From Methanopyrus sp. SNP6 (GTDB taxonomy: Archaea; JAADCQ01; Methanopyri; Methanopyrales; Methanopyraceae), in assembly GCF_002201895.1 (NCBI RefSeq), contig NZ_CP019436.1, forward strand, positions 1,339,867 through 1,403,866: a stretch of DNA of 64,000 bases, written 5' to 3'. Shown here piece after piece: positions 58,319-62,931 of the stretch. The notes below the pieces were generated by a model. The model was not told where the DNA came from and did no database searches. It saw only the letters and a list, made by a program, of their open reading frames with translations. A program made the translations under genes and the position numbers. How positions within the stretch are numbered: position 1 is the first letter of the stretch; each line of letters starts with the position of its first letter.

Positions 58319-59296
58319 TCACTGGCCGCTCTTGGTCCAGGAGAGTGATTCCCCGAGCAGCGGTCCTAGCGTCACGTCCCAGAGCCACTTCCGGAAGGGG
58401 ACGAGTGCGACTCCTATGCCGTCGTGCTTGACGGAAGTTATGTACACGCACGTGGCTCGTGCTCCATCGAACAGTCTCTCGGCGGCCCTACGGACGTTGG
58501 GGTTGTCGGGATCGAGCCCGTACTCGATCACGTATACCGGTCCTTGGAACCGGGACAGTGCCCGTAGGTTGCTCTCAAGCTCGCTCCGTGAGTACAGCCT
58601 CCCGGAACCGTCCGAGATCACACTCTCGACGACTAACGCGAACCCAAGCTCTGACTGCAACCTGGCCATATCATCCCCCTCGAATGCCCACGCACCCGCG
58701 TTGACCATAACGTGAAGACCGAGACCGTGAGCCGTTCGTGTGATCCATTTCACGGCGTTCAGCTCGTCCTTCCTGAGATCACCGTGCGGATTGACTCGAT
58801 CGTACCACCGCACGTACCAGCTATGTGAGTGTGCATCCACGACGTCCAGGAACACGCCTTCGAAGCCCAACTCCTTGAACCTGACCAACTCGGAGCGGAG
58901 GACATTCCTCCACGCCGGTTCCCAGAACTTGACGGCGTAGTCCCCTGGCCACTCGGGATCGTCGACACCCAGCAGACTCCGCCTTTCGGCCTCGCGGTAC
59001 ATGGTCGGATGGTACTCTGCGACCACACACACTGGGAGATAAGCGATAGGTTTCACCCCTGCGTTTTCGACCTTCTGGAGCTCTTCCTTCGTCCACGGGC
59101 GTCCATTAAGGCCGCACCACGGGTCGAGGACGAGGACTCTCGGCCGCTTCTGCAGTACCTCGTTCATCTTCACGTCCTGGTAGTACGTGGCGAAGGGTAT
59201 GCCGGTGCTTTCTACCATTACCTCCCCCACGATCCACTGGGATAAGACGGGTACCCACGCTAGGAGTACCGTCAATAAGATAAGGTACGTCCTCAA
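58319..59296 (-). CDS. Secreted GH114-like (TM1410/DUF297) glycosidase
   Basis: The 325-residue product has a signal peptide (LILLTVLLAWVPVLS) and a TIM-barrel of the GH114/TM1410 group: GIPFATYYQDVKMNEVL, VLVLDPWCG, IAYLPVCVVAEYH, GFEGVFLDVVDAHSHSWYVRW, and VESVISDGSGRLYSRSE. The family includes alpha-1,4-galactosaminidases that cut GalNAc polymers. The acidic residues in FLDVVDAH and the VVES strand are candidate catalysts. A link to the PelF/PelG pair (a GalNAc-type polymer) is attractive but distant. Confidence 0.8.
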   Translation of the reverse strand: MRTYLILLTVLLAWVPVLSQWIVGEVMVESTGIPFATYYQDVKMNEVLQKRPRVLVLDPWCGLNGRPWTKEELQKVENAGVKPIAYLPVCVVAEYHPTMYREAERRSLLGVDDPEWPGDYAVKFWEPAWRNVLRSELVRFKELGFEGVFLDVVDAHSHSWYVRWYDRVNPHGDLRKDELNAVKWITRTAHGLGLHVMVNAGAWAFEGDDMARLQSELGFALVVESVISDGSGRLYSRSELESNLRALSRFQGPVYVIEYGLDPDNPNVRRAAERLFDGARATCVYITSVKHDGIGVALVPFRKWLWDVTLGPLLGESLSWTKSGQ

Positions 59297-60340: not shown

Positions 60341-60930
60341 GTGTCGGGGACGGCCGCGCGGAGGATGACGGCCTTGTGTGTCAACGGGACCCTGGAGCTC
60401 CCCGATCGGCAGCGTGAAAGAGTGTTGCTTGAGGCTGAATCTCGGGGAGCGGTTAAAAGAGTTGGGGTTGCAGATCGGTAGGCTACCGAAGTACGGGTTC
60501 GGGAGCGTAGCCGGTCGTGGGTCGTCGACCGAAGGGTGTGCGCTGCGCGGAGGATGGGGAATTGCGATTGGAAACCGTGGACTGCCGGGAAGGTAAGTTG
60601 GCCGACGCGACCGAGGTGTTCCTGGTCTGAACTCCTCGACGAGCTCGCCAGCTATACGGTCCGACCCACGTCCAGTGCGGAGCTAGAGCGAGCTTAGGAG
60701 AAGCTCGAAGGGGAGATCGTTCCCAAGGACTACCTTGAGGTGCTCCGGGCGTTGTCGGGCGGACACCCCGGGGCGGTGATCGGGAGAGCCGTGAAGAACG
60801 TGGGTCTCGGGACCGCGGTTGCTCGAGCTGCTCGTCTTGAGGCTTCGGGAGACGTGGACGGGAAGGGAAACGGAAGCACGTCAACTCGAGGCTCCTACGG
60901 AGGTCCATGGGTAAAGCCACATCGGAGGGG
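60341..60930 (+). pseudogene. Decayed gene of unknown family
   Basis: Coding-like pieces appear in series. GTG 60341/ATG 60365 starts MTALCVNGTLELPDRQRER and VLLEAESRGAVKRVGVADR up to a TAG. Another frame has GELRLETVDCREGKLADATE. A third has SELLDELASYTVRPTSSAEL, an in-frame TAG, then EKLEGEIVPKDYLEVLRALS and GAVIGRAVKNVGLGTAVARA. A TATA-like element is at 60319. I cannot name the family. The pattern is that of a gene inactivated by several frameshifts and stops. Confidence 0.4.
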
Positions 60931-61348: not shown

Positions 61349-61693
61349 ATGCGTACCATCGCCCTGCTGATCGCAGCGCTGGCGATCCTAGGTGCTGCGT
61401 CCGCGACGACGTACTATTGTCCGGTTACCGGTCGGTACTTCGACGACTCCACAGCCCCAGGGAAGCACTGTGGCAACTTCGTGGATGAAAACGGTGATGG
61501 GTACTGCGACAACCTACGGGTTCTGAGCGGAGAAACGAGTGCAGAGACGAGTGAGTCTGGAGAAGTCTCGACGAGTAGCACGTCGGAACAGCAATCTTCC
61601 GCCACGAATGCGACCTCATCAACAGCTCCTGTGGGCCTTGTCGCCGTGATCGCAGGTCTTGTAATCGCGGCGGTGCTGCTGCGGCGCCTCTAG
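61349..61693 (+). CDS. Secreted Cys-containing protein with EF-hand-like motif and C-terminal anchor
   Basis: The 114-residue product has a signal peptide (LLIAALAILGAASA), then a short domain YYCPVTGRYFDD...HCGNFVDENGDGYCDN (about residues 21-55). This domain has three cysteines and a DxNxDG calcium-type loop. A Ser/Thr-rich linker of ~35 residues and a C-terminal hydrophobic helix ending LLRRL follow. It looks membrane-anchored with the Cys domain outside. The NapH-like polyferredoxin two genes downstream suggests a redox or metal role. Start ATG 61349 after GGGGGATAATC. Confidence 0.8.
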   Translation: MRTIALLIAALAILGAASATTYYCPVTGRYFDDSTAPGKHCGNFVDENGDGYCDNLRVLSGETSAETSESGEVSTSSTSEQQSSATNATSSTAPVGLVAVIAGLVIAAVLLRRL

Positions 61694-61738
61694 CCCACAC
61701 GCCCTTTCAGTTTATCTCTTGGCAAGGGGTCTCAAGAC

Positions 61739-62041
61739 ATGCTGAAGACATTCGGGTCCAGGGCGGCGATCATGATGGTTATTCTGGCCTATATCCTGAT
61801 GGTTCCCTCACACTTGACGTGGGCCGGGAAGCCCGCCGAAGACGCCAAAGAGGCGATGGCGGAGAAGAAGAACGATCAGAACGATCAAGGGATTCAACAG
61901 GAACAGCGATCGGTGGGAGGGGGCAAGGGCCCGGAGGGAGAGTCTCCCGGCTCGACAGGTGGAGGGTCGGCCGGCAGCGGCTCGTCCGGTAGTTTCGTTT
62001 GCACGGGCAACTGCGCGGCGTGTCCGAACCCGTGTCACTGA
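61739..62041 (+). CDS. Small secreted protein with C-terminal Cys cluster
   Basis: The 100 residues begin with a signal sequence (AAIMMVILAYILMVPSHLTWA). A Lys/Asp/Gln-rich part and a Gly/Ser-rich flexible linker (GGGSAGSGSSGS) follow. The protein ends CTGNCAACPNPCH, four cysteines and a final His in 13 residues. That ending could bind an Fe-S cluster or metal. It lies between the EF-hand-like protein and the NapH-like membrane protein. A TATA-like CAGTTTATC is at 61710-61718. No family recognised. Confidence 0.75.
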   Translation: MLKTFGSRAAIMMVILAYILMVPSHLTWAGKPAEDAKEAMAEKKNDQNDQGIQQEQRSVGGGKGPEGESPGSTGGGSAGSGSSGSFVCTGNCAACPNPCH

Positions 62042-62082
62042 GCTCCGCTCTTCTTCCGAACCGTAAATTGTCCGTTATCCGC

Positions 62083-62090
62083 CTATTTAT
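62083..62090 (+). promoter_or_regulatory. Candidate TATA box of the NapH-like gene
   Basis: CTATTTAT in an AT-rich patch lies about 48 bases before the ATG at 62134, with GGGGAGG as ribosome site. The gene may therefore also be transcribed on its own. Confidence 0.45.
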
Positions 62091-62133
62091 CCGACCCGTG
62101 AACGTCCGTCTAACACCGGACGTGTAGGGGAGG

Positions 62134-62931
62134 ATGTCGGGTATGGAGATCCGAAAGCTGAGAGTGGCGGCCCAGCTCATCTCCGCCGGTGTGGCTGCCG
62201 TCGGTGTAGCGTTCGGGCTCAAGGTTGTGGTACCCGGAATCGCGGCGGGCTGCGCCGGTATCATCGACACGGGCACCGTGCTCTTGATCCTGCCGGTCGT
62301 GGCGGCCGGGCTCGTGGCCCTGACGCAGCTAACGGCGATCGCACTGGTGGGTTGGATCGTGCCGGCGATCCTCGTCGGAGGCTCCATTTGCGGTTGGATC
62401 TGTCCCTTGGGGCTTGTCCAAGACGCGCTCGAGGGTCTCGGTAGTAGACTAGGCCTGATCGTGCACCGCCCGCCCGGTCATGAGGTGCTCCTATACCTGA
62501 GGTACGTAATCCTGGTTGCCACTCTGGTGCTCGGACCATTTGCCACATATAAGCTCTGGTACAAGGTCTGCCCGATGCACTACCTATCCTACATCCTGCT
62601 GGGACGGCAAGAGATCGGCCTTTACTCGGCGCTCAAGATGTCAGCAGCGTTCGGTATACTGGGAGCGTCCGTGTTCGTTCCACGGTTCGTATGCCGTTAC
62701 ATCTGTCCGGTCGGTGTCCTCCTGCGCCTGGCGAACGGCTGGAGTCTACTCGATCCGCTCCTTAAGGACAAAACGGAACTCGTTCGAAAGGGTTGCAAAG
62801 GCTGCAAGGTCTGCACGGTATGTCCCAAAGCCCTCGACCCGGCCGAAGCGTTCCCAAACGATTTCGACTGCATGAGGTGTGGGAGATGCCTGAACTGTCC
62901 TATCCATCTGAGGATGGTCGGTGAAGGCTGA
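62134..62931 (+). CDS. NapH/NosR/CcoG-like membrane polyferredoxin
   Basis: The 265-residue protein has about five transmembrane helices. Two CxxxCP motifs at the membrane surface are CGWICPLG (about residues 86-93) and CRYICPVG (about 189-196). A C-terminal ferredoxin-like domain has CKGCKVCTVCP and CMRCGRCLNCP. This is the architecture of NapH, NosR and related quinol- or flavin-linked electron carriers. Here it probably moves electrons across the membrane to the two Cys-containing secreted proteins encoded just upstream. No nitrate or nitrous oxide reductase gene is present. Confidence 0.88.
   Translation: MSGMEIRKLRVAAQLISAGVAAVGVAFGLKVVVPGIAAGCAGIIDTGTVLLILPVVAAGLVALTQLTAIALVGWIVPAILVGGSICGWICPLGLVQDALEGLGSRLGLIVHRPPGHEVLLYLRYVILVATLVLGPFATYKLWYKVCPMHYLSYILLGRQEIGLYSALKMSAAFGILGASVFVPRFVCRYICPVGVLLRLANGWSLLDPLLKDKTELVRKGCKGCKVCTVCPKALDPAEAFPNDFDCMRCGRCLNCPIHLRMVGEG

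Follow-up and report, generated by a model that had tools for sequence, protein, structure and literature searches.

Three adjacent genes of Methanopyrus sp. SNP6 (P0001, P0002 and P0003) encode two small secreted proteins with distinctive cysteine motifs and a NapH-like membrane polyferredoxin, and on balance they probably constitute an envelope electron-transfer system in which a NapH-type conduit serves a tethered three-Cys carrier. The gene partners and the cysteines together suggest that the cassette works in electron transfer or in the binding of a metal cofactor. The genes were found in a 64,000-nucleotide stretch of DNA (the window) from a genome of 1.42 Mb in one contig. The domain of P0001 represents a NapH-associated three-Cys family, defined here from its sequence pattern, that is unnamed and has no Pfam or NCBIfam model.

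The cassette and its three proteins

The genes are separated by 45 bp (P0001/P0002) and 92 bp (P0002/P0003), and these short same-strand gaps make it likely that they form one operon (Table 1). A second Methanopyrus-type genome (G001) preserves the order P0001-P0002-P0003, with identities to the window over aligned codons of 74%, 63% and 91% respectively; the corresponding dN/dS values of 0.24, 0.37 and 0.16 indicate purifying selection. Given this synteny, these ratios and a Cys tail that is identical in both genomes, all three are real genes under selection.

Table 1. Features of the cassette, in window coordinates.
Feature	Position	Strand	Remarks
P0001, secreted, membrane-tethered, one three-Cys domain	61349..61693	+	114 aa
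Three-Cys domain C24...C41-x4-DENGDGYCD, residues 24-54	61418..61510	+	alignments A1, A5
P0001 C-terminal membrane anchor helix, residues 93-111, then RRL	61625..61681	+	sequence
P0002, secreted, Gly/Ser linker, C-terminal four-Cys tail	61739..62041	+	100 aa; signal-like N-terminus
Four-Cys tail CTGNCAACPNPCH, residues 88-100	62000..62038	+	identical in G001
P0003, NapH-like membrane polyferredoxin (Fer4_5)	62134..62931	+	265 aa, 14 cysteines
P0003 Cys40, predicted outer loop 1	62251..62253	+	alignment; predicted sidedness
Two C-x3-C-P motifs (C86/C90, C187/C191), predicted inner side	62389..62706	+	Fer4_5 match, alignment
P0003 Cys146 (KVCPMHY), predicted outer loop 2	62569..62571	+	alignment; predicted sidedness
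Two [4Fe-4S]-type motifs C-x2-C-x2-C-x2-C (C221-230, C246-255)	62794..62898	+	sequence

A sequence-only reading of this DNA had described two small secreted proteins, one with a Cys/DxNxDG domain and an anchor, ahead of a NapH-like membrane polyferredoxin. This description was borne out: both small genes were found, with signal-like N-termini and a C-terminal helix in P0001, and P0003 matched Fer4_5 (PF12801) above cut-off in two stretches (3.8e-14), being the sole Fer4_5 protein of the source genome. P0003 shares with the NapH/MauN family two C-x3-C-P motifs, a multi-helix membrane architecture and two C-terminal four-Cys clusters. However, its match to the NapH/MauN model TIGR02163 (3.2e-17; 62.9 bits) falls far below the curated cut-off of 213, its clusters (C-x2-C-x2-C-x2-C) have a spacing shorter by one residue, and it has outer-loop cysteines and small Cys-containing partners. 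A search for related loci with P0003 gave no match, a PDB sequence search gave chance matches only, and nothing relevant to the Methanopyrus NapH was found in the literature.

P0001 begins with a signal-like helix and contains three cysteines (24, 41 and 53) and the loop DENGDGYCD. Its residues C24, C41, D46, C53 and D54 occupy invariant columns in alignments A1 (nine domain copies) and A5; the domain follows the pattern C-x(n)-C-x4-D-x-[ND]-x-D-G-x-C-D, and across phyla it keeps the three cysteines and D-x-[ND]-x-[DN]. P0001 belongs to the family by this pattern and by the electron-transfer-type membrane partner, adjacent or fused, that accompanies the domain across the set. No Pfam or NCBIfam model matched the domain above cut-off, a PDB sequence search with P0001 yielded chance matches only, and no description of the domain was found in the open-access literature. 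AlphaFold modelled the domain alone with low confidence (pLDDT 55).

Distribution of the three-Cys domain and its membrane partners

A search for the domain (A1) in 297 archaeal genomes gave matches in 34, of which 31 were strong and placeable. A NapH profile was run on the same genomes, and comparison of the two sets of positions placed a NapH-like gene less than 2 kb from the domain (328-1892 bp apart) in 16 of the 31. These 16 are all of the stand-alone-domain genomes of three families: f1 (Methanopyrus-type), f22 and f42, the latter two apparently Methanocaldococcaceae. With 1-4 NapH-like genes per ~1.6 Mb, the chance of such a pairing in one genome is less than 1-2%; the 16 genomes are related, and we count them as at least two lineages (Methanopyrus and Methanocaldococcaceae) plus a bacterial case. 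NapH without the three-Cys domain was common among the archaeal genomes searched, so the domain partners some NapH proteins, not all.

The remaining 15 of the 31 genomes encode a fusion, a membrane protein that has the three-Cys domain at its N-terminus followed by a His-containing domain of four helices. AlphaFold modelled the helices of this fusion well, and a Foldseek search of the model against the PDB gave no match; a conserved His and weak DUF4405 and cytochrome b matches hint weakly at heme binding. Matches of the fused helices to VKOR and OST3/OST6 were judged to be due to chance and rejected, because they are below cut-off and the helices have the conserved His instead of CXXC. At two loci (L048:9494-9808, minus strand; L047:7910-8224, plus strand) a small four-helix His-containing protein is encoded directly upstream of the domain fusion and is possibly a second subunit. 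In genome G004, a third copy of a three-Cys domain protein is flanked by two TauE/SafE sulfite-exporter-type permeases (L038:983-3041).

In bacteria, a species-genome scan, in which counts are lower bounds (at least), showed the domain among the matches listed in Patescibacteria, Caldisericota, Coprothermobacterota, Atribacterota, an actinomycete and Ardenticatenales. The Ardenticatenales locus (Chloroflexota, L119) has five domain copies in two reading frames with a NapH-like gene directly downstream; the remaining bacterial copies are mostly four-helix fusions, and that of Caldisericota matches DUF4405 weakly. The domain was rare in further samples, occurring in 3/301 Chloroflexota and in 5/299 genomes of the actinobacterial class, where one stand-alone domain protein comes after a clear DUF4405 cytochrome gene (1.1e-10). 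Judged by sequence, the membrane partner thus varies, yet remains of an electron-transfer type.

Several Methanocaldococcaceae clusters add a ferritin-like DUF2202 protein, CWB2 and an FprA-like flavodiiron protein, neighbours that hint at a role in oxidative or metal stress; none of these lies beside the window genes. Literature searches on the locus tags of the M. jannaschii cluster and on DUF2202 in methanogens gave nothing relevant. Small secreted proteins with Cys/His-rich tails are encoded in the same clusters (L083:8803-9219, L092:8964-9338, L094:8886-9296 and L096:6249-6575, all on the minus strand) and are unrelated to P0002. The count of Cys-tailed small proteins near these loci is suggestive; it carries little weight, with a background of mostly antisense ORFs.

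The four-Cys tail and the outer-loop cysteines

The exact tail pattern of P0002, CxxxCxxCxxxCH, occurs once in the source genome and once in G001, each time at the cassette locus, and as a separate gene P0002 has no relatives outside these two Methanopyrus genomes (G000 and G001). The corresponding position in G004, between the genes for the domain protein and NapH, has a 62-aa ORF whose N-terminus is similar but which contains no cysteines. Five actinobacterial genomes, however, encode single polypeptides that combine the three-Cys domain with a C-P-[LF]-G-x-C-x2-C-x2-C motif; in 2/5 this motif is C-terminal (GGCPFGPCVACGACFS and RGCPLGLCAICGICRSS). The spacing of its cysteines (C-x4-C-x2-C-x2-C) differs from that of P0002. 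Because these homologues hold both Cys modules in one polypeptide, such a Rosetta-stone fusion supports, short of proof, a joint action of P0001 and P0002.

The sequence-only reading had staked its proposal on the small proteins recurring beside NapH-like genes in other genomes. P0001 and NapH do recur together, in 16/16 genomes of the three families and in one Chloroflexota genome. The expectation that both small partners would co-occur fared less well, with a separate P0002 gene in two Methanopyrus genomes only, a shortfall softened by the actinobacterial two-module proteins. The idea of a system of a methanogen with NapH proved too narrow, as the domain extends to bacteria and to DUF4405-type and four-helix partners.

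NapH proteins adjacent to the domain have a Cys in both predicted outer loops, and these are absent in most other NapH proteins examined. The loop-2 Cys is present in 14/15 domain-linked NapH (the 15th being truncated), in 0/7 tandem second copies and in 1/6 other NapH; this last exception, from G002, is a 49% homologue close to P0003, with the outer cysteines present and the domain protein absent. The loops were assigned a side on the basis of NapH topology and of their positive flanks; the predicted topology is less certain for the Methanopyrus NapH, which has one extra hydrophobic stretch. The co-occurrence of outer-loop cysteines with the three-Cys domain is a lead towards a functional link, not proof of one. 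At Methanocaldococcaceae loci (L083:4511-6739, L092:4694-6857 and similar), tandem NapH genes stand beside the domain, the outer-loop Cys being in the first copy only.

Candidate mechanism, alternatives and surrounding genes

The anatomy of the cassette, the recurrent membrane pairing, the two-module fusion, the outer-loop cysteines and the absence of ApbE form the observed basis for the mechanism that we favour. A cytosolic donor would pass electrons to the C-terminal [4Fe-4S] motifs of P0003, which would carry them outward across the membrane and, through its outer-loop cysteines, deliver them to P0001. Held by its C-terminal helix, P0001 would act as carrier by means of the three invariant cysteines that its EF-hand-like loop bears. 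From there electrons would pass to P0002, which may be a second carrier or an acceptor with four more cysteines at the end of its flexible linker, or to another target. The carrier chemistry could be thiol/disulfide or involve a bound metal (Fe or Fe-S), and under oxidative or metal stress the system might perhaps help to keep envelope proteins, or metals, in their reduced state. The direction of electron flow, the membrane topology, the cofactor and the physiological use are those that we infer.

More broadly, although we would put this somewhat below an even chance, an undescribed family of envelope carriers based on an EF-like loop with three Cys may work with interchangeable conduits (NapH-type Fe-S proteins or DUF4405-type cytochromes) to send electrons out to thiols or metals, even in a methanogen class without cytochromes; Methanopyrus would then have the two modules of one carrier divided between two genes. 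DUF4405 cytochrome-type proteins (PF14358) are membrane partners of the domain in other lineages, with weak or clear matches, but are absent from the three window genes. Quinones are not known from the host class. A route of this kind, supplying electrons to the outer face of the membrane in archaea without cytochromes or quinones, would be undescribed; if the proposal is true, a small domain that recurs with two unrelated membrane redox-type proteins would be a carrier common to archaea and bacteria. A partial analogy to P0002 is offered by DUF4266, which has a C-terminal CXC tail and occurs in DsbD systems (PMC8238504): both are small secreted Cys-tailed proteins by a transmembrane electron conduit, although P0002 has four cysteines and a sequence relation was not found.

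The main rival to an electron carrier, unlikely in our estimation but to be taken seriously, is a structural role, in which the three-Cys domain would bind calcium, be stabilised by a disulfide, and only hold or dock the protein at its membrane partner or at the cell surface, carrying no electrons. The loop D-x-N-x-D-G-x-C-D-x-S-[EQ] resembles an EF-hand-like loop, DxNxDG alone could bind calcium, and the tandem copies of Ardenticatenales resemble docking repeats. Excalibur (PF05901; DxDxDGxxCE), which contains a disulfide and folds upon binding Ca2+ (PMC5137146), is likewise small and extracellular, with cysteines and a loop of the DxDxDG type. The P0001 domain nevertheless has an odd number of invariant cysteines (three versus two), its Cys stands one position earlier (DxNxDGxCD), and Methanopyrus has R or Q at loop position 12; the Pfam Excalibur, EF-hand and TSP3 models gave no match. 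Moreover, the partners are always electron-transfer-type membrane proteins, and domain-linked NapH has the outer Cys. Distinctly less probable is a role in metal handling, in which NapH would, like CcoG, reduce a metal (Cu or Fe) and its two small partners would be metal chaperones of the envelope. The Cys/His composition of the P0002 tail would suit such a role, as would the small, Cys/His-rich secreted proteins encoded near several of the clusters in Methanocaldococcaceae and the DUF2202 ferritin-like neighbours, but the CcoG model did not match P0003 and matched its relatives only weakly, the Methanocaldococcaceae Cys-tailed proteins are not homologous to P0002, and a metal transporter is absent beside the window genes.

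Two further explanations are scarcely credible. In flavinylated systems a NapH-like conduit feeds an exported carrier, with an FMN-binding domain and ApbE (Meheust 2021, PMC8238504), and the NapH-like and DUF4405-like partners seen here are reminiscent of them (PMC8238504). The cassette would share the path from NapH-like conduit to exported carrier; its proposed carrier, however, is a three-Cys domain, the FMN-binding domain having no match in P0001, P0002 or P0003. A search of the whole source genome for ApbE found none, the same search being positive in seven control genomes, and because of this absence the NapH-plus-FMN scheme is inapplicable and is refuted for the source genome. That unrelated genes are adjacent by chance might be argued from the restriction of P0002 to Methanopyrus, but this stands against the synteny in G001 and is refuted for P0001 and NapH by their recurrence as neighbours in 16 genomes of three families and a bacterium.

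No nap or mau genes were found among the ORFs at 52-64 kb or in the ~11 kb past the right end of the window, and no conserved enzyme partner among the domain neighbourhoods examined. A secreted GH114-family glycoside hydrolase (PF03537, 1.5e-12) is encoded at 58319-59296 on the minus strand, and just upstream of the cassette, at 60380-60640, lie pieces matching an intact 145-aa ORF of G001 (L034:10876-11313, minus strand), apparently a decayed gene in the window. That no terminal reductase is near, as the sequence-only reading had stated, is true within the window; formate dehydrogenase genes lie outside it, 2.3 kb past NapH. These FdhA/FdhB-like genes (L046:4079-6891, minus strand, opposite to the cassette) are of the ordinary F420 type. 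The FdhA frame begins at profile position 135, a late start that is possibly due to an in-frame selenocysteine TGA upstream.
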